NCBI RefSeq assembly: GCF_002017865.1
Contig: NZ_MTJN01000002.1
Coordinates: 4,030,001-4,094,000 of the forward strand
Source of the DNA: Rhodoferax fermentans
GTDB lineage: Bacteria > Pseudomonadota > Gammaproteobacteria > Burkholderiales > Burkholderiaceae_C
Reading direction: 5' to 3'
Length of the DNA stretch: 64,000 nucleotides
Of the stretch, positions 6,250 to 63,284 are shown piece by piece. Each line of letters begins with the position of its first letter. Position 1 is the stretch's first letter. Under the pieces are notes generated by a model, which saw only the letters and a program-made list of their open reading frames with translations, did no database searches and had not been told where the DNA came from. The position numbers and the translations under genes were made by a program.

Positions 6250-7497
6250 ATGCCACCCCGCCTGATCCGTCGTATTGCCCACCTGGACATGGACGCGTTT
6301 TACGCCTCGGTGGAGCTGCTGCGTTACCCGCAGCTCAAGGGCCTGCCGGTGGTGATTGGCGGTGGGCGGCGCTCGGCCGATGACGCCTTGTTGTTGGCCC
6401 ATGCCGATGTGCCGCTGAACAAGATCCCGGTGGCGGACTTTCCACGGCTGGCCGGTTACACCGGGCGCGGTGTGATCACCACCGCCACCTACGCGGCGCG
6501 CCAGTCGGGTGTGGGTTCGGCCATGGGCCTGATGAAAGCGGCCAAGCTGTGCCCAGAAGCGATTTTGCTGCCGGTGGACTTCACCGAGATCCGGCGTTTT
6601 TCGCGCGCGTTCAAAGACATCATCCTGGACATCGCCCCGCTGATGGAAGACCGGGGGGTGGACGAGGTCTACATCGACTTCACCGAGGTGCCCGGTGGCC
6701 AGCGCGACGGTGGGCGAGTCTTGGCGCGCCTGATCCAGAAGACGATTTTTCAGCAGACCGGCCTGACCTGCTCGATCGGTGTCGCGCCCAACAAACTGCT
6801 GGCCAAGATGGCCAGCGAGTTCAACAAACCCAACGGCATCGCCATCGTGTTTGAGGAGGATCTGGAAAGCAAGATCTGGCCGCTGGCCTGCCGCAAGATC
6901 AACGGCATCGGCCCCAAGGCCGATGAAAAGCTGCAGGGTCTGGGCATCACCACCATTGGCCAACTAGCGCAACAGGAGCTGGACTGGCTGATCGACCACT
7001 TTGGCCAGAAAACCGGGGCCTGGTTGTATGCCGCCTCCCACGGCCAGGATGACCGCCCGGTGGAGCTGGAGAGTGAGCCGGTATCGATCAGCCGCGAAAC
7101 CACCTTTGAGCGCGACCTGCATGCGGTGCGCGACAAGGCCGAGTTAGGCGCCATCTTCACCAAGCTGTGTGAGCAGGTGGCGGCCGACCTGGCCAACAAG
7201 GGCTATGTCGGCAAAACCATTGGCATCAAGCTGCGTTTTGACGATTTCAAAAGTGTCACGCGCGACCAGACGGTGGAGGTGTATGTGGGTGACGCCCCAA
7301 CCATCCGCCGGATCGCGGGGCACTGCCTCAAACGGGTGCCATTGAACCGGCGCCTGCGCCTGCTGGGGGTGCGGGTGGCCTCGCTGATACGCCTGCAGGA
7401 CGCCGCAGAGATGGCATCACATCAGCCTCCAGCCCTTATGAATCAAGGGCAGAAAGCTTCCAAATCCATAGTCTCTGAGCCGCAGCTGTTTGATTAA
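6250..7497 (+). CDS. dinB: DNA polymerase IV (Y-family translesion polymerase)
   Basis: A 415-residue Y-family polymerase. The N-terminal HLDMDAFYASVE supplies the first metal-binding Asp and the steric-gate region; VDEVYID (about residues 137-143) supplies the Asp-Glu pair. SIGVAPNKLLAKMASEFNKP and the helix-hairpin-helix segment (KINGIGPKADEKL) follow, and the little-finger domain completes it. An insertion of about 30 residues after VVIGGG, relative to E. coli DinB, is, as I recall, usual in Burkholderiales. The ATG at 6250 is chosen because the upstream in-frame ATG at 6175 adds non-homologous sequence. The C-terminal tail (about 390-415) is encoded by a copy of the window's palindromic repeat and is probably dispensable. 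Confidence 0.92.
   Translation: MPPRLIRRIAHLDMDAFYASVELLRYPQLKGLPVVIGGGRRSADDALLLAHADVPLNKIPVADFPRLAGYTGRGVITTATYAARQSGVGSAMGLMKAAKLCPEAILLPVDFTEIRRFSRAFKDIILDIAPLMEDRGVDEVYIDFTEVPGGQRDGGRVLARLIQKTIFQQTGLTCSIGVAPNKLLAKMASEFNKPNGIAIVFEEDLESKIWPLACRKINGIGPKADEKLQGLGITTIGQLAQQELDWLIDHFGQKTGAWLYAASHGQDDRPVELESEPVSISRETTFERDLHAVRDKAELGAIFTKLCEQVAADLANKGYVGKTIGIKLRFDDFKSVTRDQTVEVYVGDAPTIRRIAGHCLKRVPLNRRLRLLGVRVASLIRLQDAAEMASHQPPALMNQGQKASKSIVSEPQLFD
7429..7455. repeat. Short palindromic repeat (copy 1) inside dinB 3' end
   Basis: The core at 7431-7450 is an inverted repeat (GCCCTTAT ... AAGGGC). It is translated in frame as part of the dinB C-terminal tail. It belongs to the family listed at 8191, 13021, 22232, 23516, 31514, 47014, 50050, 52511 and 53776. 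Confidence 0.7.
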
Positions 7498-7631
7498 CAG
7501 CGGTGGCCCGCATAGCCCCTCTGGCGTCACAAGAATGGCGCTTTTGCTGTAATCCGCCGGTGCTTTTTTCAACCAGGTCACGGTTCACACCGGCCTTCTT
7601 TTCCCCCACCCCATCCACCAAGGACACCACC

Positions 7632-8180
7632 ATGACCACATCGCTGTACGACATCACCCTGCGCCAAGCCAACGGCTCTGACACCACGCTGGCCGATTAC
7701 AAAGGCCAGGTGCTGCTGATCGTCAACGTGGCTTCCAAATGTGGCCTGACACCGCAGTACGAAGGCCTGGAAAAACTGTTTGAGACCTACCGCGACCAGG
7801 GTCTGACGGTGCTGGGTTTCCCGGCCAACGACTTTGCCGGCCAAGAGCCCGGCACCGATGCCGAAATCGCCAGCTTTTGCAGCCTGAACTACGGTGTGCA
7901 GTTCCCGGTGTTCAGCAAGATTGTGGTGACCGGTGACAACAAACACCCGCTCTACCAGTGGCTCACCGCCGCCCAGCCGGTCACCGAAGAACGTGCCGGT
8001 GTGGAGACCATGCTGCGTGGCCACAAGATCGACCCCACCAGCGCACCCGAGGTGGTGTGGAACTTTGAGAAGTTCCTGATCAACCGCAAGGGTGAAGTGG
8101 TGCGCCGTTTTGCCCCCGCCACCACCGCCGAAGCACCCCAGTTGGTGGAGGCAGTGAAAAAGGAACTGGCCAACAAATAA
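7632..8180 (+). CDS. Glutathione peroxidase family protein
   Basis: A 182-residue thiol peroxidase of the glutathione peroxidase (BtuE/Gpx) family. The peroxidatic Cys is in NVASKCGLTPQYEGL (about residue 37), with no sign of selenocysteine. The usual FPCNQF motif reads FPANDF, so the resolving Cys common in thioredoxin-dependent Gpx is missing at that position and the Gln is Asn/Asp-like. The Trp of VVWNFEKFL is present. The ATG at 7632 gives the normal N-terminus (SLYDITLRQANG); the frame is open upstream. It probably reduces H2O2 or lipid peroxides in the cytoplasm. The altered motif leaves the reducing partner uncertain. Confidence 0.87.
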   Translation: MTTSLYDITLRQANGSDTTLADYKGQVLLIVNVASKCGLTPQYEGLEKLFETYRDQGLTVLGFPANDFAGQEPGTDAEIASFCSLNYGVQFPVFSKIVVTGDNKHPLYQWLTAAQPVTEERAGVETMLRGHKIDPTSAPEVVWNFEKFLINRKGEVVRRFAPATTAEAPQLVEAVKKELANK

Positions 8181-8190
8181 ATAGCACCAG

Positions 8191-8210
8191 GCCCTTATTC
8201 CATAAGGGAC
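8191..8210. repeat. Short palindromic repeat (copy 2), between gpx and queF
   Basis: GCCCTTAT and ATAAGGG arms lie in the 44-bp gap between convergent genes. It may act as a hairpin transcription barrier. Flanking ATAGCACC and AGAAGCC match the outer parts of other copies. Confidence 0.65.
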
Positions 8211-8224
8211 AGAAGCCAATACGG

Positions 8225-9070
8225 CTATTGCCGCGCGCTGCGCACGTTGCTGGGCAGCGCTTGCGGAAAACTCGAGCGAAACGGGTTGATATCCAGCCCG
8301 CCACGGCGGGTGTAACGCGCGTAGACACTGAGCTTGTGTGGCAAACAGCGGGCCTGGATGTCCATGAAGATGCGCTCAACACAGTCTTCATGGAAACCGT
8401 TGTGGTTGCGAAAACTCACGATGTAACGCAGTAATCCGGCCTGGTCGATCTGCGGACCAAAGTAGCTGATCTGCACACTGCCCCAGTCGGGCTGGCCTGT
8501 CACCGGACAATTGCTTTTGAGCAGGTTGCTGGTCAACACCTCGGATACTGGCGATTCCTCAGTGGCCGAGCTCAGGAACTCGGGCGCGGGGGTGTAACGG
8601 TCACAGTCCAGGTCAAGCCGGTCCAGGCTCAAGCCGTCGAGTTCATGGATGGGTTCCTGGTCAAACAACTCGGCCGCGATCAGCTTCACACCCACACTGC
8701 TTAACACCACCGCGCCACGCCAGGCGGCCTCGGTCAAATCGGCGCGCAAACGTGCCTGCACCTCCGCTGCGTCGGCAAACCGGGTGTTGCTGAAACTGCC
8801 CAGGTACAGCTTGAACGACTTGCTCTCGATGATGTTGGCCGACTCACACGGCACCGTGATGTGGGCCAGCGCCAGCTGCGGCTTGCCACGTGTGTTGAGC
8901 CAACTCAGCTCAAACGCGGTCCACAAATCCGCGCCGAGAAACGGCAGCCGCTGGCTGATACCCAACTTCTCGCGCTGCGCGACACGCGGGATCGGGAACA
9001 GCAGGCTGGCGTCGTACTGGTCCACATACTGCGTGGCCTGGCCTAAAGGGGAATGAGCTATGGGGTTCAT
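8225..9070 (-). CDS. queF: NADPH-dependent 7-cyano-7-deazaguanine reductase QueF
   Basis: A 281-residue QueF of the long, two-domain (E. coli-type) form. It reduces preQ0 to preQ1 in queuosine biosynthesis. The catalytic Cys and Asp are in [15 protein letters not shown] (around residue 188), and HEDCVERIF gives the second conserved region. The N-terminal half has [17 protein letters not shown], the QueF motif that binds NADPH and substrate. The start at 9070 gives the normal [15 protein letters not shown] N-terminus; the open frame upstream has no homology I recognise. Confidence 0.93.
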
Positions 9071-12928: not shown

Positions 12929-13003
12929 GGCACACCTTCACCGGTGTGCCCCAAGCCGGACTGGGACAAGCTGCCCCGCGCAGCTTGCCCTCCGGTTTTT
13001 TTT
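12929..13003 (+). terminator. Hairpin plus rho-independent terminator after ahpC
   Basis: A first hairpin GGCACACC/GGTGTGCC (12929-12950) is followed by a second stem, CCGGA/TCCGG with inner CAAGCTG/CAGCTTG (12956-12995), directly followed by eight T residues (12996-13003). It sits 45 bp after the ahpC stop. Confidence 0.85.
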
Positions 13004-13020
13004 CGAACAAAATTTGCCTC

Positions 13021-13053
13021 CAGCCCTTTTAAAACGGGCACAAACAGCTATTT
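13021..13053. repeat. Short palindromic repeat (copy 3), ahpC-ahpF gap
   Basis: CAGCCCTTTTAAAACGGGC, followed by the conserved AACAGCTATTT outer part. It lies immediately before the ahpF ribosome-binding region (ATG 13080). Confidence 0.65.
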
Positions 13054-13079
13054 AAGAAGTAGCACCTAAGGAATCCACC

Positions 13080-22209: not shown

Positions 22210-22500
22210 ATCGCGATACCATTCCTGAAGTTATAGCTACCAGCCCTTACAAATCAAGGTCTAGAGGCCACTTTCATTTAACCTGACTTACCCGCCAGCT
22301 GCAGCGAGGCACGCAAAGTGGTATTGATGCGGGTTTGCCAGACATCACCGGAGGCGCACACATCGGTTGACCAGGGCTCGGGGCAGTTGGACGTTTGATG
22401 GGCGTTGAGACATAATTTTTTTGCACACAAGGTGCATTCCTCAGCCAGTCCAGGCTGACAGAGCAATCTCCATCGTCCAATCTCATAGCAGGGGAACACC
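22210..22500. other. Divergent promoter region with repeat, upstream of hcp
   Basis: Holds repeat copy 4 and presumably the promoters for hcp and the membrane-protein unit. No supported gene. An AT-rich patch (22412-22425) could be part of the hcp promoter. Confidence 0.4.
22232..22270. repeat. Short palindromic repeat (copy 4)
   Basis: TATAGCTACCAGCCCTTAC, then AAATCAAGG and TCTAGAGGCCA. It has the full outer and inner parts seen in other copies and lies just upstream of the truncated-looking ORF. Confidence 0.65.
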
Positions 22501-23031: not shown

Positions 23032-23973
23032 TCACGACCCCGCCAGCCCCTGCACGACCGTCGGGTAGTTCAGCCGCAGGCGCAGCTCTTTTTTGAGCCG
23101 GGTGTTGTCCATGCGCCGGGACTCACTCATGAAACTCAGCAGGGCCAATGGCAGGCGTTGTTGTGCCTCGGCGCGCGACAGGCGTTCGGGCCGGGGCAGG
23201 CCGTACAGGTCGGCGGCCAGCTCGAAGTACTCACCCATCTTCAGGCAGGTGTCGTCGTTGGTGTTATAGACCCGTTGCGGGGCGCCGCGCCACAGGGCGG
23301 CCACACAGGCGCGCGCCAGGTCGTCGGCGTGGATGTGGTTGGTGTAGACGTCGTCCTCGGCGCGCAGCATGGGTGTGCCGCGCAACAGGCGTTCACGCGG
23401 TGTGCCGCCCACGCGGTTGGGGGCGTAAATGCCGGGGATGCGCAGCACGGTGCTGGGCACACCCGTGGCGCGGCCATAGTGGCGCACCAGGCTTTCAGCA
23501 CAAATTCGCCTCTTGGCCCTTGATGTAAAAGGGCTAGCAGCTCTTGTTTCTGTAGCTACTGCACCTTCGCAGTCGCCATACACACCGCTGGTGGAGCCGT
23601 ACACCAGCGACTCGGGCTGGCTGCGCCTGCGCAGCACACGTGTCAGCGCACGGGTGCGCGGGTCGCCCGGCACACTCTCCAGCGGCGGCGCCAGATGCAC
23701 CACACGGGTCGCCAGACCGGCCAGGCGGCGCAGACTGGCCGGTTCATCCAGGTTGCCCAGCAGCGGTGTGATGCCTAGGGCGCGCAGCTCAGCCAGGCGG
23801 GTGGCGCTGGAGGTCAGCGCGAGCAGGCGCACTTGGCGGTGCATCAGGGCCGCCACGCGCAGGCCAACATCACCACAGCCCACCAGCAGCACACGTTCAC
23901 GCCGGAAACGGGCGGGCAAGGCGCCAGGGCGGGTGGCGTACAAAAGGGGAGACGTGCTTGTTAATGCGGGCAA
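23032..23973 (-). CDS. NAD-dependent epimerase/dehydratase (YeeZ-like SDR)
   Basis: A 313-residue extended SDR of the YeeZ-like group. The nucleotide-binding loop is VLLVGCGDVGLRVA; the later VYGSTSGVYGD carries the Ser/Tyr region, though the active Tyr-x-x-x-Lys is not classical. The start appears to be TTG (23973) with AAGGATC upstream, since no ATG precedes the Rossmann motif. Residues around 146-158 (TRAASPFTSRAK) are encoded by a copy of the palindromic repeat, replacing a stretch usually variable in homologues. It is divergent from the ferredoxin-reductase gene. The substrate is unknown. Confidence 0.82.
   Translation of the reverse strand: MPALTSTSPLLYATRPGALPARFRRERVLLVGCGDVGLRVAALMHRQVRLLALTSSATRLAELRALGITPLLGNLDEPASLRRLAGLATRVVHLAPPLESVPGDPRTRALTRVLRRRSQPESLVYGSTSGVYGDCEGAVATETRAASPFTSRAKRRICAESLVRHYGRATGVPSTVLRIPGIYAPNRVGGTPRERLLRGTPMLRAEDDVYTNHIHADDLARACVAALWRGAPQRVYNTNDDTCLKMGEYFELAADLYGLPRPERLSRAEAQQRLPLALLSFMSESRRMDNTRLKKELRLRLNYPTVVQGLAGS
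23516..23542. repeat. Short palindromic repeat (copy 5) inside the SDR gene
   Basis: GCCCTTGAT ... AAAAGGGC core followed by TAGCAGCT. It is translated in frame on the minus strand without disrupting the ORF. Confidence 0.65.
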
Positions 23974-26449: not shown

Positions 26450-27686
26450 CCACACCGGCCCCGGACAAGTACCACTGCGCAATGATCTGCCGCTCAGCTG
26501 CGGTGATGTGGGTGGTGTTGCTCATGGGCATGAGTTTGCTCACCACCACCTGCTGGTAGATGTTGGCCGCGTTTTGTTGGACCATCTGCGGGCTGTCAAA
26601 ACGCAAGCCCTTGGACTGCACCGCTTCACCATGGCACAGGTAACAACGCTGCTCCAGCACGGTTTGCAGGGTTTTGTAAGAGATTTGGCCGCTAGCCCCG
26701 GTATTACCTGGGCTACCCGCTATGGAAGACGCAGCAGCTTGCGGGGTGTTGGACTCTGGCGCAGGTTTGAGCCAGACGATCATCATGGCAATCACCACCA
26801 CACCCAGCAGCGCGTAGGGCAGCGGATTGCCATTGCGACCCAGCTTGAAGCCGTGGCGCAGCACAAAAAACTGACGGATGGCGGCACCCGCAAACATCAT
26901 CGCAATCAGCACCAGCCAGTTTTGCGGGTGGGTGTAGGTGAAGCTGTAATGCCCGCTGAGCATCGCAAACAGCACCGGCAGCGTGAAATAGGTGTTGTGC
27001 ACACTGCGCTGTTTGCCGCGTTTGCCGTGGATCGGGTCCACCGGTTCACCGGCCTTGATGGCGGCGATCACCTTGCGCTGGCCCGGAATGATCCAGTGCG
27101 CCACATTTGCACTCATGGTGGTGGCCATCATGGCGCCCACCAGCAAAAAGGCAGCGCGCCCGGCAAACCAGTGGCATGCCAGCCAGCTGGCCACACACAC
27201 CAGCACCAACACCAGCGCGCCCACGATGGCGTCACCGTTTTTGCGCTGGCCAAACAGGCGGCAGATCAGGTCGTACAGCAGCCAGAAAATCACCAGAAAA
27301 AAAATCGCCACCGTGATCGCCTGCCAGGGCAACCAGTCCATCTTGGACTTGTCGATCAGGTAGGTGGTGGCGCTCCACAGGTAGGACACGGTGAACAGCG
27401 AAAAGCCGGTCAGCCAGGTGGTGTAACTCTCCCAATAAAACCAGTGCAGGTGTTTGGGCAGCTGCGGCGGGCGCACCGCAAACTTCACCGGGTGGTAAAA
27501 ACCGCCGCCGTGCACCGCCCACAACTCACCACTGACGCCTTGTTTTTTGAGGTCTTCGTCCTCGGGCGGGGTCAGGCTGCTGTCCAGAAACACAAAATAA
27601 AACGAGGAACCAATCCAGGCAATCGCGGTGATCACATGCACCCAGCGCAGCAGCAGGTTGGCCCAATCGAGGTAATAACTTTCCAT
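26442..27686 (-). CDS. puuD: Membrane urate oxidase/hydroxylase PuuD with cytochrome c domain
   Basis: A 414-residue integral membrane enzyme that oxidises urate to 5-hydroxyisourate, passing electrons to a cytochrome c chain instead of O2. The N-terminal WVHVITAIAWIGSSFYFV and HGGGFYHPVKF motifs and about eight membrane helices form the PuuD domain (about 1-310). A C-terminal class I cytochrome c domain carries CYLCH (about residue 360) and a distal Met in SKLMPMSNTTHI. A linker at about 322-336 is encoded by a repeat copy. Neighbours (XdhC, HIU hydrolase, PuuE, OHCU decarboxylase) complete urate breakdown. Confidence 0.93.
   Translation of the reverse strand: MESYYLDWANLLLRWVHVITAIAWIGSSFYFVFLDSSLTPPEDEDLKKQGVSGELWAVHGGGFYHPVKFAVRPPQLPKHLHWFYWESYTTWLTGFSLFTVSYLWSATTYLIDKSKMDWLPWQAITVAIFFLVIFWLLYDLICRLFGQRKNGDAIVGALVLVLVCVASWLACHWFAGRAAFLLVGAMMATTMSANVAHWIIPGQRKVIAAIKAGEPVDPIHGKRGKQRSVHNTYFTLPVLFAMLSGHYSFTYTHPQNWLVLIAMMFAGAAIRQFFVLRHGFKLGRNGNPLPYALLGVVVIAMMIVWLKPAPESNTPQAAASSIAGSPGNTGASGQISYKTLQTVLEQRCYLCHGEAVQSKGLRFDSPQMVQQNAANIYQQVVVSKLMPMSNTTHITAAERQIIAQWYLSGAGVDD
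26691..26723. repeat. Palindromic repeat, variant subfamily B, in the puuD linker
   Basis: GCTAGCCCCGGTATTACC then TGGGCTACCCGCTAT. Same outline as the main repeat but with CCC(C)GG...ACCTGGG arms. In frame between the membrane and cytochrome domains. Confidence 0.55.
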
Positions 27687-30631: not shown

Positions 30632-30675
30632 GATTTGCTTGCCTCCATACCTGCCTGACTGAAAGGTGTTTTTTG

Positions 30676-30705
30676 GCCTCTGGCCCTGATACCACCTGGA
30701 TTTAG
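30676..30705. repeat. Palindromic repeat, variant subfamily B, intergenic
   Basis: GGCCTCTGGCCCTGATACCACCTGG-like arrangement (given here only in outline: CCCTG ... ACCTGG arms) in the 132-bp gap before the uraD-allC fusion. Degenerate. Confidence 0.4.
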
Positions 30706-40015: not shown

Positions 40016-40027
40016 CTTGAATACTCA

Positions 40028-41242
40028 TTAATTGCTAGCTGCTTGCCCTGGTGCTACCTGGGCTGGTGTGCTTTTTTCTTTGGAAAGCGTGGCGCTGGCA
40101 TCCACCACGCGCACCAGGTCACCCTCGGTCAGGAAACTCACACCACTGGCCACCAGCCGATCCTCCGCCGCAACGCCAGCCAAGATCTCGACCTGCTCAC
40201 CCAGCCTGCGGCCGGTTTGCACCTTGCGCTGGCTGATCTTGTTGTCGGCCCCCACACGCATCACGTAGCTGAAGCCGTCACGCACCAGCACCGCACTGTG
40301 TGGCAGGGTCATGGCGCTGGAGCTGCCCAGCGCAAACTCGCCCCGGGCAAACATGCCGGGTTTGAAACTGGCCGCCACACCTGTCGCCGCATTTCCGGCG
40401 CTGCCTCCCTTGGGGGCCGCCAGGTCCACATACACCAGGCCATTGCGGGTCTGGGCGTCCACCGTGGGTGCCACCATGCGCACCCGGCCCTGGGTCTGGG
40501 CGCCGCCCGGGGCGGTGACCAGCACCGGGGTGCCCACGGCCACTTGACTCAGTTCGCTGGAGGTCAGCTCGGCGCGCCACTCCAGACGACCCTGGCGGAT
40601 CAGACGGAACATCTCGGTGCCCGCGCCCAGCACCGCCCCCACGGTGGCGCTGCGGCTGGAGATGATGCCCGCATCAGGCGCCAGCACCCGGGTGTAGCTC
40701 AGGCGCAGCAGCTGGGTGTCGAGCTGGGCTTTGGCCGATTCCACGCGGGCCTTGGCGGTGAGCTCCTGCGTCAGGTAAACGTTGATCTGCTGGGCGCTCA
40801 AGGCACCTGTGCCTTGCACAGCGCGGGCGCGGTCCGCATTGGCGGCGGCCTCTGCCGCATTGGCCGTGGCTTCACTCAAAGCAGCACGCGCCAGCGCCAC
40901 CTCGGCTTGTACCGGCTCGGGCGCAAACCTGGCCAGCAGCTGCCCGCGTTGCACACGGTCACCCACCTGCACCAGCAGCTCTTGCACCCGCAGGCCACTG
41001 GCCTCGGCGCCAATGCTGGCCTCTTGCCAGGCCGCCAGGTTGCCATTGGCCGTGAGTTTGATCGGCAGGGTGCCCGCACGCGCCTGGGTCAGGGTTACCG
41101 TGAGCGCGGGTTTGCTGGTGGCGCTGGGGGCGACGGCATCGGCCGCAGCGGGCTGCAGGGCCAGCAGCACCAGGCCACCGGCAACCAGCAGACAAGCGGC
41201 CATCAGGCCCAGGGTGAGGGGTTTGAGTTGGATGAGCTTCAT
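40028..41242 (-). CDS. RND efflux membrane fusion protein
   Basis: A 404-residue periplasmic adaptor. An N-terminal membrane anchor or signal (LGLMAACLLVAGGLVLLAL) is followed by a lipoyl half-motif (IGAEASGLRVQELLVQVGDRVQRGQLLARF), an alpha-helical hairpin rich in Ala/Glu/Arg (about 115-175) and beta-barrel domains with the second lipoyl part. The start at 41242 gives the normal signal region. The extreme C-terminus (APGQAASN) is encoded by a variant repeat copy, as in other genes here. It bridges the RND pump and the outer-membrane channel. Confidence 0.92.
   Translation of the reverse strand: MKLIQLKPLTLGLMAACLLVAGGLVLLALQPAAADAVAPSATSKPALTVTLTQARAGTLPIKLTANGNLAAWQEASIGAEASGLRVQELLVQVGDRVQRGQLLARFAPEPVQAEVALARAALSEATANAAEAAANADRARAVQGTGALSAQQINVYLTQELTAKARVESAKAQLDTQLLRLSYTRVLAPDAGIISSRSATVGAVLGAGTEMFRLIRQGRLEWRAELTSSELSQVAVGTPVLVTAPGGAQTQGRVRMVAPTVDAQTRNGLVYVDLAAPKGGSAGNAATGVAASFKPGMFARGEFALGSSSAMTLPHSAVLVRDGFSYVMRVGADNKISQRKVQTGRRLGEQVEILAGVAAEDRLVASGVSFLTEGDLVRVVDASATLSKEKSTPAQVAPGQAASN
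40032..40066. repeat. Palindromic repeat, variant subfamily B, at the MFP gene 3' end
   Basis: TTGCTAGCTGCTTGCCCTGG then TGCTACCTGGGCTGG. It supplies the last codons and the stop of the MFP gene. Confidence 0.55.
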
Positions 41243-41290: not shown

Positions 41291-42736
41291 TTACAAGGCG
41301 GTGTGGGTCGTTGCGGGGCTTGGTGTTGGGCTGGGGGTGGACAAGCGGTCGGGCTCGAACCCGCCACCCACAGCGCGGTACAAGGCCACCCAGGCCTGCT
41401 GGCGCTCCAGCGCCAGGGTCAAGACGCTGGATTCGGCGGCCAGCGCGCTGCGCCGGGCATCCTCCAACTCCATCAGGCTGGCCAGGCCTTGGTCAAAGCG
41501 CTGCTGGGTGGCGGCCAGTGCCTCGGCATACCCTTGGGTGGACACCTCGGCATCCCCCTGGCGGGTCTGCACACTGCGCAGGGTCAACATGGCCTCTTCC
41601 ACCTCACGCACGGCTTGGCGCACCTTGGCCTGGTAGGTGACCACGGTCGACTGGTAGGCTGCGTAGGCCGCCTGCACATTGGCTGCGCGCTGGCCACCGT
41701 CAAACAGTGGCAGGCTCAACGCCAGCGGGCCAAACGACCAGGTCGACACCTCGCTGGTGCCGGCGCCGCTGCGCACACGCAGGTTGCCAATGCTGCCATT
41801 CAGGCTCAAACGCGGCCACTGCTGCGCTTTGGCGCTGCCCACCTGGGCGCTGGCCAACACCACATCACGCTCGGCCGCAAACACATCGGGGCGTTGTGAC
41901 ACCACCTGAATCGGCAAAGACGATACGGAAAACATAGCTATCTGCCCTTGTTTCACCTGGGATAGAGCCAGTTTTTGCCTCAAATCAGGCTCAGGCACCG
42001 CTGTCAGCGCCACCAGGGCTTTGACATCGAGTTCACACAAGCGGGTTTGCTGGGTCAGGCGGCTGTTGGCCTCGGCGGCGCTGGCGCGGGCTTGCGCCCC
42101 CACCGACGGTGCGACAAACCCGGCCTGGGCGCTGATGGTGGTCAGTCGCGCGGTTTCCAGCCGCGAGGCCGCGTCACGCTCGGCCACACCCAGCTGGCGA
42201 GTGCAACTGGCAAAGCTGTAATAGGTGTTGGCCACCTCGGCGGCCACCAACACCCGGGCGTCGTGCCACTGGGCCTGGCTGCCTTCCATCTGCGCCTGGG
42301 CTGCGCGACTGACCGCGCGGTTGGCGCCAATCAGGTCCAGCTCCCAGGCGGCTTGCACACCAAGCTGCGAGCTGGTGGCCACCGGCACATCGGGCTGGCT
42401 GACACCCCGGCTGCTACTGGCCTGGGCGCTCAGGTTCGGGATCAGCGCGGCATTGGCGGTGGCCTGGTTGGCGCGGGTAGTGGCAATACGACTCACGGCC
42501 TGCGCCACCGACGGGCTGGCGGCTTGTGCCGCTTCAATCAGCTCGACCAGCAGCGGGTCACCCTGCTGCTGCCACCAGTTCGACAAAGAGGACACGGTGC
42601 CCTGGTGCGGCAACGGTGCCTGCCAGGCAGGCGCCACCACCATCGGCACCTGGGCCGGTGGCATCAGGTTGGCGCAGCCAGACAGCGCCAGCACGGTGAG
42701 GGACAGGCTGGCAAAAGGCTTGATTCTGAAATTCAT
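41291..42736 (-). CDS. RND outer-membrane factor lipoprotein (NodT/TolC family)
   Basis: A 481-residue outer-membrane channel. The lipobox LALSGC (Cys about residue 19) marks lipid anchoring, as in OprM-type factors. Two outer-membrane efflux repeats follow, with characteristic WWQQQGDPLLVELIEAA and AAWELDLIGANRAVSRAAQA. The start at 42736 overlaps the tetR stop by 4 bp (ATGA). A copy of the palindromic repeat (41934-41970) encodes a short segment (IAMFSVSSL region) near residue 262. The order OMF-MFP-RND is unusual but known. Confidence 0.92.
   Translation of the reverse strand: MNFRIKPFASLSLTVLALSGCANLMPPAQVPMVVAPAWQAPLPHQGTVSSLSNWWQQQGDPLLVELIEAAQAASPSVAQAVSRIATTRANQATANAALIPNLSAQASSSRGVSQPDVPVATSSQLGVQAAWELDLIGANRAVSRAAQAQMEGSQAQWHDARVLVAAEVANTYYSFASCTRQLGVAERDAASRLETARLTTISAQAGFVAPSVGAQARASAAEANSRLTQQTRLCELDVKALVALTAVPEPDLRQKLALSQVKQGQIAMFSVSSLPIQVVSQRPDVFAAERDVVLASAQVGSAKAQQWPRLSLNGSIGNLRVRSGAGTSEVSTWSFGPLALSLPLFDGGQRAANVQAAYAAYQSTVVTYQAKVRQAVREVEEAMLTLRSVQTRQGDAEVSTQGYAEALAATQQRFDQGLASLMELEDARRSALAAESSVLTLALERQQAWVALYRAVGGGFEPDRLSTPSPTPSPATTHTAL
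41934..41970. repeat. Palindromic repeat, variant subfamily B, inside the outer-membrane factor gene
   Basis: ATAGCTATCTGCCCTTG, TTTCACCTGGG and ATAGAGCCA show both outer and inner parts of the repeat. In frame. Confidence 0.55.
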
Positions 42737-46707: not shown

Positions 46708-47061
46708 GTTACAGCGCAAAACCATAGTATCTGGATGACCGCTGTCTGGAAATATGGAAGTCAGCTATCAGCCTCAAGCTGACTTTCCCCACCCTCAACG
46801 CATCCAAAACTGTTGAAGGCGGGTGGTGGGCTAACCGGGCGCAGAACCCATTCGCGTGGTGAGACTGGCGGCGCACCACCCTCATCAACAACACCCCAAC
46901 AAACGCCCCACCAACACCGTCTCCCGCGAGGGGGCCGGAGAACGGTTACCCCGCCGTCCGCCTGGCGCCACGCGAACCAGCGGTTCAAAACACTACAGAA
47001 AAGTTAGCAACCCGCCCTTATAAAACAAGGGCGAGAGAGCATTTTTTCATGCAAGCAAGAA
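46708..47061. other. Intergenic region with imperfect inverted repeats and repeat copy 7
   Basis: No supported gene. GTTGAAGGCGGGTGGTG (46812-46828) is roughly complementary to 46874-46889, and TTCGCGTGG (about 46851) to CCACGCGAA (about 46970). A short palindromic repeat follows at 47014-47035, next to the aldehyde dehydrogenase 3' end. Confidence 0.5.
47014..47035. repeat. Short palindromic repeat (copy 7)
   Basis: GCCCTTATAAAACAAGGGCG core, 27 bp beyond the aldehyde dehydrogenase stop, where it could serve as a hairpin barrier. Confidence 0.65.
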
Positions 47062-49921: not shown

Positions 49922-50128
49922 ATGACCACCGACACACGCTGCTGCGGCACCGGCACCTGCCTGATCAATCCCGAGGGCCTGTGCTGGTGTGGCCAGCGCT
50001 GGAACGGTGACCAGATGTGTGGCCCTGGCTCTGAGCCAAATCAGCCTACAGCCCTTATAGATCAAGGGCAAACAGCTGCAGAAGTTGCAGCAAACCAAAC
50101 CACCAACACCATCACCAGTCCAGGCTGA
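49922..50128 (+). CDS. Small Cys-rich protein in the photolyase cluster
   Basis: A 68-residue protein with AAGGAG upstream of the ATG. The N-terminal half holds six Cys (TRCCGTGTCLINPEGLCWCG, MCGPG), suggesting a small metal site. The C-terminal half (ALIDQGQTAAEVA) is encoded by a palindromic repeat copy and is probably dispensable. It ends 5 bp before the first photolyase gene. I recognise no named family. Confidence 0.7.
   Translation: MTTDTRCCGTGTCLINPEGLCWCGQRWNGDQMCGPGSEPNQPTALIDQGQTAAEVAANQTTNTITSPG
50050..50079. repeat. Short palindromic repeat (copy 8) inside the small Cys-rich gene
   Basis: CAGCCCTTATAGATCAAGGGC followed by AAACAGCTG (core 50050-50070). In frame near the 3' end. 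Confidence 0.65.
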
Positions 50129-50133: not shown

Positions 50134-51711
50134 ATGGCCTACAGCCTGGTCTGGTTCAAGCGTGATCTGCGCCTGCATGACCACGCGGCCTTACACGCCG
50201 CCAGCCAGCGCGGGCCGGTGCTGTGCCTGTTTGTGATTGAACCCAGCCTGTGGGCGCAGCCCGATGCCGCACACCAGCACTACGCTTTTTTGCTGGAGAC
50301 TTTGCGTGAGTTGGCGCGCGACCTCAAAGCCCTGGGCGGGCGCCTGCATGTTCGCACCGGCGAGGTGACCGAGGTATTGGCCCAGTTGCACACGTTGGCA
50401 CCGTTTGAGCACCTGTACTCGCACGAAGAAACCGGCAACGCCGCCACGTTTGAGCGTGACAAAGCCGTGGCGCGCTGGTGCCGCGCCCAAGCTGTCACCT
50501 GGCAAGAGTTGGCGCAATTTGGGGTGGTGCGCCGCCTGAGCGACCGCAACCATTGGCTGCGCCATTGGCAGGCCCACACCACCGCGCCGCAGCTGCCCTG
50601 CCCCGAACCCGGCGCGCTGGCGTTTTGGCCCAGCCCCTGGCCCACACAAGCGGTGCCCAGCGCACACGCGCTGGGGCTGGACGCCTGGGACCCGCCGCAG
50701 CGCCAGCGCGGTGGCCGCAGCATCGGCCAAGCCGTGCTGGACGACTTTTTGAACCAGCGCTGCCGCCAGTACCGGGGCGGCATCTCGTCACCATTGTCGG
50801 CACCCACGGCCTGCTCGCGCCTGTCACCCTACCTGGCGCTGGGCGCCTTGAGCCTGCGTGAGGTGGTGCAAGCCACCCAACACAAGATGCTTCAACTCAA
50901 GGAGCAACAAGCCTATGCGGCAAAAGGGCTGGAGGCCTTTTTGAGCAGATTGCACTGGCATTGCCACTTTATCCAGAAGCTCGAATCCGAACCCGAGCTG
51001 GAGTGGCGCAACCTGCACCGCGGCTACGACGGCCTGCGTGAGCACGACGTCAACCCCGCGCATTTTGCGGCGCTCACCGACGGCCGCACCGGCTGGCCGA
51101 TGGTGGATGCCTGCGTGGCCATGCTGCGCGAGACCGGCTGGCTCAACTTTCGCATGCGCGCTTTGCTGGTGTCGGTGGCCAGCTACCCGCTGTGGCTGCA
51201 TTGGCGAGAAGTGGGCCAATGGCTGGCGCGGCAGTTTCTGGACTACGAGCCCGGCATCCACTGGAGCCAGATGCAGATGCAGGCCGGTACCACCGGCATC
51301 AACACCACCCGCGTGTACAACCCGGTCAAACAGGCGCAAGACCACGACCCGACGGCAGTGTTTGTGCGCCGCTGGTGCCCGGCGCTGCGTCGTGTGCCCG
51401 ACAGCTGGGTGCTGGAGCCCTGGCGCATGCCCGAGAGTGTGCAGCTGGCCTGCGGCGTGACAGTGCGTGCCGATGCACCTGCCGGTGCACCAGACGCCTG
51501 GCCGCTGCCGCTGGTGGCACTGGACAGCGCCACCCGCCGCGCCAAAGACCGCCTGCACAGCCTGCGCCAACAGCCCGAGGTGCGCGCCGCCAAGGCCGCG
51601 ATTGTGGACAAACACGGCTCGCGCAAAGAGCGTGATGGCCGCCCGCCCAGCCCCCGGCGGCGCTTGCCCCCGACCCCGGCCAGCACCCAACTGAGCCTCG
51701 GTTTTGATTGA
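50134..51711 (+). CDS. Photolyase/cryptochrome-family flavoprotein A (FAD-binding)
   Basis: A 525-residue protein of the photolyase superfamily. The N-terminal alpha/beta antenna domain starts with [16 protein letters not shown]. The helical FAD domain includes [17 protein letters not shown], a central [11 protein letters not shown], the core [31 protein letters not shown] and [30 protein letters not shown] (quoted in parts). The tail after about 485 is basic and Pro-rich. It resembles the FAD-binding class I/cryptochrome-like group with DUF2256 next door; whether it repairs CPDs or acts as a light sensor is not decided by sequence. Confidence 0.85.
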
Positions 51712-51898: not shown

Positions 51899-51929
51899 CT
51901 TGGCGCGCCATTACCAACCCAGCCCCCAC

Positions 51930-53339
51930 ATGCCACCCCTGATCTACTGGTTTCGCAAGGACCTGCGCCTGACCGACGCCCCCGCGCTGGCGCACGCCAT
52001 GCACTTGGCGCAGCGTGATGGGCAGCCGCTGCTGCCGGTGTTTTGCCACGCGCCGCCCAGCACCACACGCTGGGGGTTTGCGCGTGTGGGGCCGCACCGC
52101 CAGCGTTATGAACGCGCCACGCTGGACGACCTGGCCGCCAATTTGCAAGCCTGTGGCAGCCGTCTGCTGGAGCTGGCCGGCCCGGCCGCAACCACGCTGC
52201 AGGCGCTGTGCCAAACAGTGGGTGCCAGCCACATCGTCTGCGAGGACATCGCCGCGCCCGAAGAGCAGGCCGAGGTGGCCGCCTTGCGTGCCGCCGGTTT
52301 GACCGTCCAGACGCTGTGGCAGTCCAGCCTGCTGGCACCAGAGCAGCTGCCGTTTGCGGCGGGTGACTTGCCCGATGTCTTCACCCGCTTTCGCCAGCAG
52401 CTGGAAAAGGCCGCTGTGACACCCCCCGCGCCGCTGCCCCAACCCACCACACTGCCTGCCCCGCCCCGGCTGGAGACACCGGCGTGGCAGCTGTTTTACA
52501 AGCAATATCAGGCTTCAACCCTTATCCATCAAGGGCCAACAGCTATCAAAAATGGTGTGATCGAGGCACGCTCGTCCTACCCCTACCACCTGCCCGACTG
52601 GGCCGGGGGCGAAAGTGCCGCCCTGGCGCACCTACGCCGCTACCTGGCCAACCAACAACCCCACAGCTACAAAGCCACACGCAACCAGCTCAGTGGCACC
52701 GGTTTTTCCAGCAAGTTTTCACCCTGGCTGGCCTGCGGGGCGCTCTCGGCACGCACGGTGTACGCCGAACTCAAGGCCTTTGAAGCCGAATGGGGCGCCA
52801 ACGAGGGCAGCAACTGGCTGTGGTTTGAGCTGCTGTGGCGCGACTACTTTCGCCTGCTGCACCACAAATACGGCGTGCGGCTGTACCACGCGCAGGGCTT
52901 GCGTGGGGCGCAGACAGCCCAGGCGGGCGCAGGTGTCGGAGCAGGTGTCGGTACAGCCTGGCGCCCGCACAACCCGCCCCCGCCGCGCGCCACCACCGCT
53001 GGGTCGCCTGAGCTTGCACGCTGGTGTGCCGGGCGCACCGGCACACCGCTGGTGGATGCCGCCATGCGCGAGCTGCGTGCCAGCGGCTACCTGTCCAACC
53101 GCCTGCGCCAGGTGGTGGCGAGTTTCTGGCTGTTTGAGCTGGGCGGCGACTGGCGCGCGGGTGCGGCCTGGTTCGAGTCCCAGCTGGTGGACCATGACGT
53201 GTACAGCAACACCGGCAACTGGCTCTACATCGCCGGCCTGGGCACCGACCCGCGCGGTGGCCGCCTGTTTGACGTGGCCAAACAAAGCCGCGAACATGAC
53301 CCCGAGGGCAGCTACCAGCGGCTGTGGTTGGCGGACTGA
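51930..53339 (+). CDS. Cryptochrome DASH
   Basis: A 469-residue DASH-type cryptochrome. It opens with LIYWFRKDLRLTDAPAL and carries the FAD-domain motifs KATRNQLSGTGFSSKFSPWLA, NWLWFELLWRDYFRLLHHKYG, TGTPLVDAAMRELRASGYLSNRLRQ and DHDVYSNTGNWLYIAGLGTDPRGGR. DASH proteins bind FAD and MTHF and repair CPDs in single-stranded DNA. A Gly-rich low-complexity insert (AGVGAGVGTAW) lies near residue 333. A palindromic repeat encodes the linker around residues 194-206, between the antenna and FAD domains. Confidence 0.9.
   Translation: MPPLIYWFRKDLRLTDAPALAHAMHLAQRDGQPLLPVFCHAPPSTTRWGFARVGPHRQRYERATLDDLAANLQACGSRLLELAGPAATTLQALCQTVGASHIVCEDIAAPEEQAEVAALRAAGLTVQTLWQSSLLAPEQLPFAAGDLPDVFTRFRQQLEKAAVTPPAPLPQPTTLPAPPRLETPAWQLFYKQYQASTLIHQGPTAIKNGVIEARSSYPYHLPDWAGGESAALAHLRRYLANQQPHSYKATRNQLSGTGFSSKFSPWLACGALSARTVYAELKAFEAEWGANEGSNWLWFELLWRDYFRLLHHKYGVRLYHAQGLRGAQTAQAGAGVGAGVGTAWRPHNPPPPRATTAGSPELARWCAGRTGTPLVDAAMRELRASGYLSNRLRQVVASFWLFELGGDWRAGAAWFESQLVDHDVYSNTGNWLYIAGLGTDPRGGRLFDVAKQSREHDPEGSYQRLWLAD
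52511..52547. repeat. Short palindromic repeat (copy 9) inside cryptochrome DASH
   Basis: GGCTTCAACCCTTATCCATC, then AAGGGCCAACAGCTATC. In frame in the interdomain linker. Confidence 0.65.
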
Positions 53340-53397: not shown

Positions 53398-54966
53398 ATG
53401 CCCACCACCGCCAACCCGCCAAGCACCCACACCCTGCGCCTGATCCTGGGGGACCAGCTCAACCCGCAGCACCCCTGGTTTGCCCAAGTGGACGCTGGCG
53501 TGGTCTATGTGCTGATGGAAATTCGCCAGGAAACCGACTACGTCTTGCACCATGCGCAGAAGATCATTGCCATTTTTGCCGCCATGCGTGCGCTGGCACG
53601 CCAGTTGGCGCAGGCTGGCCACCGTGTGCACTACCTGCAGATCAACGACCCGGCCAACCAGCACAGCCTGCCCGCCAACCTGGGCGCGCTGATTGAGCGC
53701 TACCAGCCCCGGCAGTTCGACTACCAAGACCCCGATGAATACCGGCTGGACCAGCATTTAAAAGACTTTTTTGCCTCTAGACCTTATGCAGCAAGGGTCA
53801 ACAGCTCTCAGGTCGATAGCAAACATTTCTACACCCAGCGCCATGAAGCCGCTGAGTTGTTTGCCCAGCGCAAGCAGTGGCTGATGGAGCACTTTTACCG
53901 CCACATGCGCCTGCGCCACCGGGTGTTGATCGACGGGATGGACAAACCCGCAGGCGGCCAGTGGAACTTTGACGCCGAGAACCGCAAACCCTGGAAAGGT
54001 GCGCCCCCCGAGCCGCCCGACCTGCGTCCGCGCCATGACCACAGCACCCTCTGGGCCAGCATCGAGGCGGCGGGTGTGCAGAGTTTTGGTGAACCCAGCG
54101 CTGACAACTTGCGCTGGCCGCTCAACCGCACTGAGGCAGTGCAGCAGCTGGAGCACTTCATCTGCCACGCCCTGCCTCACTTTGGCGACTACCAGGACGC
54201 CATGAGCCGCAAGGCCTGGCGGCTGTTTCACAGCCTGCTGTCGTTTGCACTGAACGTGAAGATGCTGAACCCGCGTGAGGTGGTGGAGCGGGTCGAAGCC
54301 GAATGGCGCGCGGGCCGCGTTGAACTGGCGGCGGCTGAGGGCTTTGTCCGCCAGATCATCGGCTGGCGTGAATATGTGCGGGGCATTTACTGGGCGCAGA
54401 TGCCGGGTTACGACCAGCACAATGGCTTTGAGCACAACACGCCGCTGCCCAAGTGGTTCTGGACCGGCAACACGCGCATGAACTGCCTGGCCGCGAGCAT
54501 CACCGGCTCGCTGCAACACGCCCACGCGCACCACATCCAGCGGCTGATGGTGATTGGCAACTTTGCCTTGCTGGCCGGGCTGGACCCGCAGGCGCTGCAC
54601 CGCTGGTACCTGGGGGTCTACATCGACGCGTTTGAGTGGGTGGAGCTGCCCAACACCCTGGGCATGAGCCAGTTTGCCGACGGCGGCCTGCTGGCCACCA
54701 AACCCTATGTGAGCAGCGCCGCCTACATCGACCGCATGAGCGACTACTGCAAAGGCTGCGCTTATGACAAAAAGCAGCGCCTGGGTGAGGCCGCTTGCCC
54801 GTTCAACGCGCTGTACTGGGACTTCTACCAGCGCAACGCCGACCCACTCAAAAAGAACCCGCGCATTGGCATGGCCTACCAACACATCGCGCGCATGGAC
54901 GCTGACACACTGGCGGCCTTGCAGGCTCGCGCCAGCCAGATCCGTGGGCAGCTCGACGCCTTATGA
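53398..54966 (+). CDS. FeS-containing bacterial cryptochrome/(6-4) photolyase (PhrB/CryB type)
   Basis: A 522-residue FeS-BCP family protein. The N-terminal domain (LRLILGDQLNPQHPWF) is the cryptochrome-related antenna fold. The C-terminal half has PLPKWFWTGNTRMNCL, YCKGCAYDKKQR and EAACPFNALYWDFYQRN, whose four Cys match the ligands of the 4Fe-4S cluster in Agrobacterium PhrB and Rhodobacter CryB. This family repairs (6-4) lesions and binds FAD and a lumazine. A palindromic repeat encodes residues at about 127-137 (PYAARVNSSQV). Confidence 0.92.
   Translation: MPTTANPPSTHTLRLILGDQLNPQHPWFAQVDAGVVYVLMEIRQETDYVLHHAQKIIAIFAAMRALARQLAQAGHRVHYLQINDPANQHSLPANLGALIERYQPRQFDYQDPDEYRLDQHLKDFFASRPYAARVNSSQVDSKHFYTQRHEAAELFAQRKQWLMEHFYRHMRLRHRVLIDGMDKPAGGQWNFDAENRKPWKGAPPEPPDLRPRHDHSTLWASIEAAGVQSFGEPSADNLRWPLNRTEAVQQLEHFICHALPHFGDYQDAMSRKAWRLFHSLLSFALNVKMLNPREVVERVEAEWRAGRVELAAAEGFVRQIIGWREYVRGIYWAQMPGYDQHNGFEHNTPLPKWFWTGNTRMNCLAASITGSLQHAHAHHIQRLMVIGNFALLAGLDPQALHRWYLGVYIDAFEWVELPNTLGMSQFADGGLLATKPYVSSAAYIDRMSDYCKGCAYDKKQRLGEAACPFNALYWDFYQRNADPLKKNPRIGMAYQHIARMDADTLAALQARASQIRGQLDAL
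53776..53806. repeat. Short palindromic repeat (copy 10) inside the FeS-BCP gene
   Basis: TCTAGACCTTATGCAG, then CAAGGGTCAACAGCT. Slightly degenerate, in frame. Confidence 0.6.
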
Positions 54967-61555: not shown

Positions 61556-61569
61556 AAAAGGCAAAAACT

Positions 61570-61602
61570 CCCTCTCCCTCAGGGAGAGGGCCGGGGTGAG
61601 GG
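61570..61602. repeat. CCCTCACCCCGGCCCTCTCCC-type hairpin repeat, copy 2, in the urtA-urtB gap
   Basis: Inverted copy of the 29161 repeat: 21 identical bases (61582-61602 on the minus strand) and a tight CCCTCTCCCT/AGGGAGAGGG hairpin (61570-61590). A partial third copy lies at 61645-61661. It may trim or stabilise the urtA message. Confidence 0.8.
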
Positions 61603-61712
61603 CAGGCATGACAAGGCACACAACGAAGTGAAAGCCACGCGTCAACCCTCACCCTCTCAGGGAAATTGCAGCGTGGGCATGGGCCACCGTGCCCACTCTA
61701 CAGGTTCTGACC

Positions 61713-63284
61713 ATGTTCAAAAAAATACTCCTATCCACTTTACTTTTGATAGCTGGAAGCGCTTATTCCATAACGGCTGAAGAGGTCAAAAGCATCACAA
61801 TCGGCGAAACCGACAGCCGCGTCGAGGCACTGGCCAAAGCCATGCTGGCGGCCGACGACAAGACAGCAGCCTTTCTGCAAGCCCTGTCGGACGACGCTGT
61901 CAAAGTGGCAGGCGACAAGATTCTGGTGATCCAGGGTGACAAGGTGGTGGATGCGGTCACACAGGCCGAAGTCCCCCTGCCCGATGACGCCGAGGACGTG
62001 ATCAACAACAACCGCATGCGCGGTGAAATTGACTCAGCGCTGGCGGCGCTCAAGTTGTTCTCCAAAGACGATAAGGTCCGGGCGGCGGCGGTCAAACAAT
62101 TACAAAGCGACGCGGACGAGACCAAGCTGCCGCTGATCGAAAAAGCCTTGGCCACCGAGTTAAACACCAGCATCAAGGACCAGCTGAATCTGGTGCGCGC
62201 TGCCGCTCTGCTCGGTAGCGCCGATAAATCAAAACGCCTGGAAGCCGCCCAACTGCTGGCCACCAGCGGCCAGGCAAATACCAAGACCATGCTGCTGGCC
62301 CGGCTGGAAAACGAAACGGATGCCGAGGTCAAGGCCGCTCTGGGTGCAGCGCTGCGCCAGGTGGAATCTGCCCTGGCCTGGGGCGACAAGCTGGGTGCAC
62401 TCTTCAGCGGCATCAGCCTGGGCTCGATCCTGCTGCTGGTGGCACTGGGCCTGGCCATCACCTACGGGCTCATGGGTGTGATCAACATGGCGCATGGTGA
62501 GTTGATGATGATTGGCGCCTACGCCACCTATGTGGTGCAGGGCCTGTTTCACACCTACCTGCCCGGCGCTTTTGACTGGTATCTGTTGGCGGCGGTGCCG
62601 GTGGCGTTTATGGCCTCGGCGCTGATGGGCGCGCTGCTGGAACGCAGCGTGATCCGTTTCCTCTATGGCCGCCCGCTGGAAACGCTGCTGGCCACCTGGG
62701 GTATCAGCCTGATGCTGATGCAGCTGGTGCGCAGTGTGTTTGGTGCGCAAAACGTGGGGGTGGAAAACCCGTCTTGGATGAGTGGCGGTGTGCAGGTGCT
62801 CGGCAACCTGTCTCTGCCCTACAACCGGCTGATCATCATCGGTTTTGCCATTTTTGTGCTGGGCAGTGTCGCCTGGCTGATTGGCAGGACACGCCTGGGC
62901 CTGTTTGTGCGTGGTGTCACCCAGAACCGGCCGATTGCGTCCTGCATGGGGGTCAATACCGCAAGGATTGACACCTACGCCTTTGCCCTGGGCTCGGGCA
63001 TTGCCGGGCTGGCTGGCTGTGCGCTGAGCCAGGTCGGAAATGTCGGCCCAGACCTGGGCCAGGGCTACATCGTCGACGCCTTCATGGTGGTGGTGCTGGG
63101 GGGGGTTGGGCAACTGGCTGGCACCGTCTACGCCGCACTGGGTCTGGGCATTCTGAACAAGTTTCTGGAAGGCTGGGCCGGTGCAGTGCTGGCCAAAATC
63201 GCGGTGCTGGTGTTCATCATCATCTTTATTCAAAAGCGTCCGCAAGGGATTTTTGCGATGAAAGGCCGCTCAGCGGAAGCTTGA
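61713..63284 (+). CDS. urtB: Urea ABC transporter permease UrtB
   Basis: A 523-residue permease with an N-terminal secreted/periplasmic extension (about 1-215), including a signal region whose end (AGSAYSITAEEV) is encoded by a palindromic repeat copy, and a branched-chain-type permease domain (about 235-515), with GVINMAHGELMMIGAYATY, ERSVIRFLYGRPLETLLATWGI and SCMGVNTARIDTYAFALGSGIAG. The long N-terminal extension is usual in UrtB. It forms the channel with UrtC. Confidence 0.94.
   Translation: MFKKILLSTLLLIAGSAYSITAEEVKSITIGETDSRVEALAKAMLAADDKTAAFLQALSDDAVKVAGDKILVIQGDKVVDAVTQAEVPLPDDAEDVINNNRMRGEIDSALAALKLFSKDDKVRAAAVKQLQSDADETKLPLIEKALATELNTSIKDQLNLVRAAALLGSADKSKRLEAAQLLATSGQANTKTMLLARLENETDAEVKAALGAALRQVESALAWGDKLGALFSGISLGSILLLVALGLAITYGLMGVINMAHGELMMIGAYATYVVQGLFHTYLPGAFDWYLLAAVPVAFMASALMGALLERSVIRFLYGRPLETLLATWGISLMLMQLVRSVFGAQNVGVENPSWMSGGVQVLGNLSLPYNRLIIIGFAIFVLGSVAWLIGRTRLGLFVRGVTQNRPIASCMGVNTARIDTYAFALGSGIAGLAGCALSQVGNVGPDLGQGYIVDAFMVVVLGGVGQLAGTVYAALGLGILNKFLEGWAGAVLAKIAVLVFIIIFIQKRPQGIFAMKGRSAEA
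61746..61782. repeat. Palindromic repeat-like segment in the urtB signal region
   Basis: TTGATAGCTGGAAGCGCTTA, then TTCCATAACGGCTGAAG: GCGCTTATTCCATAA with the outer TGATAGCTG. It resembles the Comamonadaceae repeat and falls at the start of the mature protein. Confidence 0.5.

Follow-up and report, generated by a model that had tools for sequence, protein, structure and literature searches.

A palindrome-cored motif of Rhodoferax fermentans that does not add its own size to conserved host proteins

Motif copies in the window and across the genome

We analysed a stretch of 64,000 nucleotides from the 4.47-Mb genome of Rhodoferax fermentans (C2:4030001-4094000, contig NZ_MTJN01000002.1; hereafter the window), in which genes and intergenic regions alike carry copies of a motif with a palindromic core. 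A first-pass annotation, made from the letters alone, had read this motif as a repeat of roughly 35 bp that is inserted in frame and supplies peptide segments to proteins; we find that coding copies in conserved genes do not add their own size to the protein. When 55 core matches from the window and 20 sampled 20-kb stretches were oriented alike, conservation extended over about 66-70 bp, so that the 35-bp palindrome stands as the core of a longer unit. This unit consists of an AT-rich flank, GGCCTC, TAGCCCTTAT..AAGGGC, AGCTAT and a second AT-rich flank, with an information content of about 46 bits spread over its length.

Copies were scored in bits with a 70-column profile, which at a threshold of at least 16 bits gave 18 matches in the window, 75 in the other sampled sequence (400 kb) and none in reversed sequences. 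The background maximum was 4.0 bits in reversed R. fermentans sequence (1.12 million positions) and, with the first profile, 26.1 bits over 0.79 million positions from loci assigned to other families or left unclassified; matches below about 30 bits were taken as unsafe. Two window matches, at 17092 (24 bits, in ValS) and 43933 (22 bits), score no higher than the background does. The remaining 16 are good copies, and 10 of them are inside genes as judged by Pfam matches and position:

7406..7475, + strand, copy near the C-terminus of dinB (49 bits; IMS family gene at 6175-7497)
8166..8235, - strand, copy between the convergent ends of a GSHPx gene and queF (44 bits; genes by Pfam)
12997..13066, + strand, intergenic copy upstream of a Pyr_redox_2 gene (55 bits; identity 1.00 with the related genome G397)
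22218..22287, - strand, copy outside the genes tested (48 bits; coding signal on neither side)
23490..23559, + strand, copy antisense in an SDR/epimerase gene, length unchanged (51.5 bits)
26669..26738, + strand, CCTGGG-variant copy in the linker of a Urate_ox_N protein (uricase; 39 bits)
30657..30726, + strand, intergenic variant copy (34 bits)
31500..31569, - strand, copy in the UraD-AllC linker (36 bits)
40020..40089, - strand, variant copy at the C-terminus of an HlyD-family protein, extending beyond the stop codon (41 bits)
41919..41988, - strand, variant copy in an OEP outer-membrane efflux gene (55 bits)
46989..47058, - strand, intergenic copy downstream of an aldehyde dehydrogenase gene (52 bits)
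50025..50094, + strand, intergenic copy, common to R. ferrireducens A7 (54 bits)
50886..50955, - strand, copy in a DNA photolyase gene, length unchanged (40 bits; 39 with a profile from noncoding copies only)
52492..52561, + strand, copy in a variable linker of CRY-DASH (58 bits)
53754..53823, + strand, copy in a DPRP (FeS photolyase) domain (54 bits)
61734..61803, - strand, copy at the N-terminus of UrtB (37 bits)

Each of the 15 places named in the first-pass annotation holds a copy, and the variants with CCCTG/ACCTGGG arms belong to the same family, since the same profile scores them at 34-55 bits. Its estimate of about ten copies in genes holds for nine of the 15 (DinB C-terminus, SDR/epimerase, uricase linker, UraD-AllC linker, HlyD C-terminus, OEP, CRY-DASH, DPRP and UrtB N-terminus), while those at 8191, 13021, 22232, 30676, 47014 and 50050 are intergenic or overlap gene ends; the tenth intragenic copy of the window, at 50911 in the photolyase gene, was absent from its list. 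Three adjacent photolyase-type genes (photolyase, CRY-DASH and the DPRP/FeS type; 50134-54966) have one copy each, and dinB and mutL also bear the motif. The CRY-DASH protein is 95% identical to a Rhodoferax sp. U11-2br protein over residues 222-519. At 30764-32584 the window encodes a UraD-AllC fusion protein with an OHCU decarboxylase and an M20 peptidase domain. The OEP copy is present at the same length, with motif, in G397, G366 and G428, and the UrtB copy is common, also at the same length, to L074, the sole relative aligned there.

In an enlarged sample of 554 kb of unique sequence we observed 109 matches of at least 25 bits, 108 of them unique, which extrapolates to about 870 copies per genome. 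Two of the 20 sampled 20-kb stretches, L035 (C2:880001-900000) and L043 (C2:2640001-2660000), have no copy of at least 25 bits; of the 20, L035 is the poorest in GC (54.6%) and is possibly foreign DNA. On the small contig C1 the core matches resemble those of C2:3.300-3.308 Mb with a different spacing, and this contig may be a duplicate or an alternative assembly of that region. Since copies of 52-60 bits also occur in Acidovorax, Giesbergeria and Simplicispira loci (L080, L083, L085 and L086), the family is wider than Rhodoferax. A search against Rfam gave nothing at the gathering score except one tRNA.

Two other repeats of the window are separate from this motif. At 29128-29225, R. fermentans has a different dispersed palindrome (CCCTCACCCCGGCCCTCTCCCGC...GCGGGAGAGGGTGAG) that the collinear contig of G397 lacks, which makes it a presence/absence insertion, and the intergenic region 32586-33029 has long inverted parts (ACCCCGCGAGGCGGGGCCTGTGG..) that recur elsewhere in several Rhodoferax genomes and are shorter in G397.

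Protein length at coding sites

Gene context in the sample was assigned with a purpose-built codon-usage scorer that uses no annotation, excluding matches less than 200 nt from a stretch end and requiring, for the intragenic class, an open frame through the motif; this scorer calls dinB, DASH, HlyD and UrtB one-sided only. In this way, 24 unique copies were confidently intragenic and open, 14 of them antisense and 10 sense, with a mean score of 44.4 as against 52.8 for the other 84. Outside the intragenic class, one of the 109 matches lay between flanks in a common frame but contained a stop, seven had flanks on one strand in different frames, and three had flanks on different strands. With a profile trained on the 80 other copies only, intragenic copies still scored 28-66 bits, while the background reached 21.0 at most, two excepted: those at L031:17917 and L038:11711 dropped to 18 and 21 bits and are to be discarded from the 24. 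Because the frames are open and mainly two (17 of the 24 copies are in sense-1 or anti-0), coding constraint filters the copies; of the insertion mechanism or strong filtering proposed before, the filter is thus borne out and whole insertion, on the protein lengths below, is not.

Hosts outside the window were named by eye from their peptides, and for AlaS, HsdM, BenE and others these names are tentative. Ten of the eye-named hosts were then compared with solved structures, where a whole inserted copy should lengthen the protein by about 22-23 amino acids. The alignment of LdcA to its solved homologue did not cover the motif site; at the nine measurable sites, the difference (R. fermentans minus homologue at the motif) ranged from -3 to +14 amino acids and was 22-23 at none. 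It was 0 for QOR, +1 for PepN, +4 for both TruB and FolC, and +7 for GuaA; SelO was shorter by 3 and 2 residues than its solved homologues, and MutL by 2 at the last motif residue and by a further 2 just after. The largest differences were in DapF (+11, including 5 or 2 immediately ahead of the motif) and a MurU-like protein (+14, plus 4 more some residues after).

Wider sets of homologues gave a similar picture. Among 42 photolyase homologues of at least 50% identity, 28 align without gaps at the motif and the other 14 with 1-12 gap codons. The motif scores of the 28 ungapped sequences are 44 (L076), 35 (L074), -5 (L073) and, for the remaining 25, -36 to -79, these 25 coming from other genera and one Rhodoferax metagenome-assembled genome (L078). 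For the SDR, the motif-free proteins of G396, G399 and G433 are equal in length with residues aligned, and the spacing across the site is 43 residues in 118 of the 120 homologues listed, two not matching the pattern; for TruB it is 46 residues in 114 of the 120 listed, with six not matching. DPRP has the same length in motif-free L073 (score -1.8), and eight more distant relatives shown have 4-6 gap codons. Overall, existing sequence is occupied without insertions or deletions at most sites, the exceptions being linkers and one intergenic site.

These lengths bear directly on the view of the first-pass annotation, in which the motif would be a mobile segment adding in-frame peptides to proteins. 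Such segments are known as Rickettsia palindromic elements, which are described as insertions that encode an extra peptide and for which TruB is a host in R. conorii (PMC2229807). The present motif resembles them in being open in frame inside proteins and in having TruB as a host, and both the 24 unique copies in open frames, with two frames dominant, and the longer UraD-AllC and uricase linkers would suit such an origin. It differs from them in the small change in protein length: the nine structure-based differences and the zero difference at the SDR and at most photolyase homologues speak against a peptide of the motif's own length. In the comparison with homologues that had been proposed along with this view, SDR, photolyase (28 of 42) and QOR homologues have the same length and aligned residues without the motif, and MutL and SelO homologues are 2-3 residues longer at the site. 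Already contradicted at these five proteins, a peptide-adding segment is in our judgement highly improbable.

Relatives, arm spelling and the RAYT-like gene

Motif positions are common to species. Over the main collinear blocks, R. fermentans and G397 are 92-96% identical, and all 21 R. fermentans sites anchored on both sides, of which 19 reach at least 30 bits in R. fermentans itself, carry the motif in G397, the other 21 of the 42 matches having no usable anchors. These two genomes differ at 31 of 418 positions in high-information columns compared with 47 of 286 in low-information columns, some tandem copies being paired repeatedly. Against R. ferrireducens A7 (G416), the motif is present at 30 bits or more at 10 of 13 anchored R. 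fermentans sites; two of the other three score at most 24.4 bits in R. fermentans itself, and the third is a coding site with 36.7 bits in R. fermentans and 18.3 in G416, aligned without a gap. Conversely, of 12 anchored G416 sites, 11 have the motif in R. fermentans.

Motif presence at two unlinked genes, truB and selO, tracks the genome-wide load. The core pattern occurs 0 to 419 times in 60 Rhodoferax genomes, counted on both strands, while a backward control pattern reaches 7. We read the TruB and SelO sites in 30 Rhodoferax genomes each, the best 30 of the 52 and 51 genomes matched, and found no net length change in any (30/30 for each gene), with motif scores running from 69 to -37 at TruB and from 62 to -32 at SelO. 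Site score and genome motif count were correlated with a Spearman coefficient of 0.85 for TruB (p 3e-9) and 0.87 for SelO (p 3e-10), values uncorrected for relatedness, and of the 18 genomes read at both genes, 17 had concordant states. With the motif region left out of the TruB tree, parsimony requires three changes of state, whereas shuffled labels need 7.2 on average and never fewer than 5, which makes loss the simpler direction at TruB within the genus.

Arm spelling is species-specific, coding copies mostly conform to it, and complementarity of the arms is not required. Exact patterns with GGG and GCG arms number 257 and 2 in R. fermentans, 0 and 78 in G366, and 0 and 95 in G415. With a profile blind to the arm letters, three spellings were seen that differ between species: CCC/GGG in R. 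fermentans (78 of 112), G397 (21 of 31), G416 (19 of 28) and, more weakly, G437 (5 of 13); CGC/GCG in G415 (12 of 22) and G366 (5 of 16, with a GCG right arm in most); and CCC/GCG, a non-complementary pair, in G438 (16 of 21). The right arm in TruB, read by eye, is GGG in R. fermentans, G397, G416 and G437 and GCG in G366, G415 and G438, fitting the main spelling of the genome in 7 of 7 cases, and the change from GGG to GCG turns a loop Lys-Gly into Ser-Ala.

These observations also bear on a second explanation, that the motif is a hairpin element of the kind formed by repetitive extragenic palindromic (REP) sequences and their hairpin-forming pairs (REPINs), moved by a single RAYT-like (REP-associated tyrosine transposase-like) Y1 transposase, with ancient insertions whose length was later adjusted in genes. 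REP/REPIN sequences with RAYTs are palindromic, have hundreds of copies and are mostly intergenic, some lying in genes that include those for TruB and a photoreactivating enzyme (PMC3733652, PMC3116915). Our motif shares the palindrome, the copy number, the mainly intergenic location, the TruB and photolyase hosts and a Y1 transposase in the genome; published REPs within genes (PMC3733652) also speak for the comparison. The R. fermentans genome has one Y1_Tnp match, a protein of 234 amino acids, and matches occur in 52 of the 60 Rhodoferax genomes searched. Across 20 loci, the motif directly at the 3' end of this RAYT-like gene scores at least 43 bits in 11, 4.5-22.7 bits in 8 and -9.4 bits in one. 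One intergenic presence/absence difference between G416 and R. fermentans, with a gap of 69 nt, and a slight covariation of the arms in R. fermentans copies would likewise suit a mobile hairpin.

Other features of the same loci and copies point away from it. In 19 of 20 loci, 149-153 nt separate RAYT residue 200 from the next conserved motif (161 nt in the remaining locus), irrespective of motif score; a different repeat, TCTGACCC, follows the RAYT-like gene in 20 of 20 loci, and an inverted GGGTCAGA lies upstream in 8 of 20, R. fermentans not among them. This pair of repeats is reminiscent of the transposases flanked by terminal inverted repeats with a GGGGWSAS motif described in PMC3733652. 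Motif-poor G396, G399 and G433 still have the RAYT-like gene, 0 of the 21 anchored sites is polymorphic between the 92-96% identical genomes, and insertion-sized additions of 22 amino acids were seen at none of the nine protein sites. In the motif consensus, the REP tag GTAG/CGTC is not found at the 5' foot of the stem, with a weak GTAG 3' of it; 5' of the stem, one strand reads GGCCTCTA and the other has an ATAGCTAnnA-like sequence. The non-complementary arms of G438 are evidence against a hairpin-based REP element and, together with the slightness of the covariation in R. fermentans, suggest that what is read is mainly a double-stranded sequence of two half-sites, not a hairpin. We thus regard a RAYT-moved element as doubtful, although it deserves to be kept in view.

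Candidate processes and related systems

The account that we favour, at about an even chance, is that the approximately 870 dyad-like motifs are gained, kept and lost in place through a factor that reads them, most likely in a drive by DNA uptake or recombination. Existing sequence would be overwritten or substituted by the motif with nothing added, a sequence-reading factor acting on double-stranded DNA would uphold the motif genome-wide, and the motif would decay in lineages that lose this factor. The most likely process is a drive of the sort considered for DNA uptake sequences and uptake signal sequences (DUS/USS), whereby motif-like alleles would be preferentially taken up and then replace the resident allele at unchanged length, with coding constraint confining the motif to permissive loops and largely stop-free frames. 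DUS/USS occur in thousands of copies in the genomes quoted and have species dialects; within genes they are limited by stop codons and favour permissive regions, and a recombination origin has been argued for many of them and a drive proposed (PMC3630211, PMC2397512, PMC1939737). The Rhodoferax motif is like them in its hundreds of copies, its dialects (three arm spellings) and its occupation of existing sequence, and unlike them in length, spanning about 66-70 bp with two half-sites where a DUS has about 10-12 nt. Because the motif is so much longer, we do not claim membership of the DUS/USS class, and the likeness is one of behaviour only.

The main alternative for the reader would be a chromosome-binding protein, the motif then being the binding site of a chromosome-organising or nucleoid protein that is selected in place at many sites. 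The in-place and spelling evidence suits this explanation as well as it does an uptake or recombination drive, and so does the presence of both orientations in genes. Even spacing of the copies was rejected, however, as counts per 20 kb are Poisson-like (mean 3.55, variance 4.05); replication-strand orientation likewise gave only a weak bias with GC skew (p 0.02-0.03), and separate selection of about 46 bits at hundreds of sites would presumably be costly. On these grounds we consider a chromosome-organising site unlikely.

Several observations weigh against in-place gain by an uptake or recombination drive. Some proteins are longer with the motif: the UraD-AllC linker exceeds those of motif-free relatives by 12-13 amino acids (those of G416 and G366 are longer than that of R. 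fermentans), and the uricase linker exceeds them by 5, 9 and 13. Variable linkers therefore gain some length, and with UraD-AllC, uricase, DapF and the MurU-like protein longer by 5-14 amino acids (18 for the last with its further gap), partial additions occur or the loops tolerate both states. The QOR copy scores 28 bits with the noncoding-only profile, near the background maximum of 21. The intergenic difference mentioned above concerns a 70-bit G416 copy downstream of DPRP, absent from R. fermentans and, by eye, from L075 and L073, and the motif at the RAYT-like 3' end in 11 of 20 loci fits the REP model too. In spelling, the TruB right arm of G423 is GCG in a genome with 52 GGG and 5 GCG patterns, and the SelO right arm of G437, by eye, is GCG, unlike the main spelling of that genome. 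Core pairing in R. fermentans copies is 0.752, where 300 shuffles reach at most 0.751, and double changes number 45 (mean 31.8 and maximum 46 in the shuffles), so that there may be some arm covariation, if slight. In length the motif far exceeds DUS/USS cores, and the analysis yielded no reader gene. Finally, the most parsimonious history at TruB would place the motif in the ancestor of the genus with three later losses, and the same-length TruB relatives may therefore be decayed copies. In-place gain would thus be inferred from other genera, at photolyase, MutL, QOR, SelO and PepN.

Spaced motifs have been found in Comamonadaceae by statistical means, including GCTTAT(N)5AAGCG in A. ebreus, with 114 copies of which 5 are in genes, and the highest number of motif pairs, 140, in R. 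ferrireducens T118 (PMC5217627). The A. ebreus motif fits the GCG-arm form of the Rhodoferax motif, and the P. naphthalenivorans motif of the same study may or may not be related to it; the passages of that study on these motifs give no full element, species spelling or between-species comparison of sites, and leave their function open. BRE, a Bordetella/Polaromonas repeat, is likewise betaproteobacterial with some copies in coding sequence, and we set it apart by its description only: about 90 bp, 69% GC and tandem, with variable number, at most 29 per genome and 4 in R. ferrireducens T118 (PMC3110155). Among the open-licence papers searched on Comamonadaceae, Rhodoferax, Polaromonas and Acidovorax repeats, no fuller description of the motif came up; in that literature, no paper was found that contains "DNA uptake sequence" and "Comamonadaceae" together, and Rhodoferax genome papers had passages on CRISPR only or none of the terms searched for. 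Tentatively, Rhodoferax and probably other Comamonadaceae might possess a genome-wide signal for uptake or recombination, about 66-70 bp long and not recognised before, that is written in place into conserved genes such as truB, selO, dapF and mutL, with loop residues (Lys-Gly to Ser-Ala in TruB) that would shift with the spelling of the species.

Palindromic repeats in genes have previously been interpreted as mobile DNA whose insertion donates peptides, and our results suggest that intragenic REP-like copies elsewhere be checked for a change in length before they are called insertions. The motif sits in housekeeping genes without a gain of its own length and tracks both genome load and species spelling; the protein sequence of these loops is therefore partly dictated by a signal at the level of DNA. 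If this signal serves uptake or recombination, such systems would extend to another large bacterial family.

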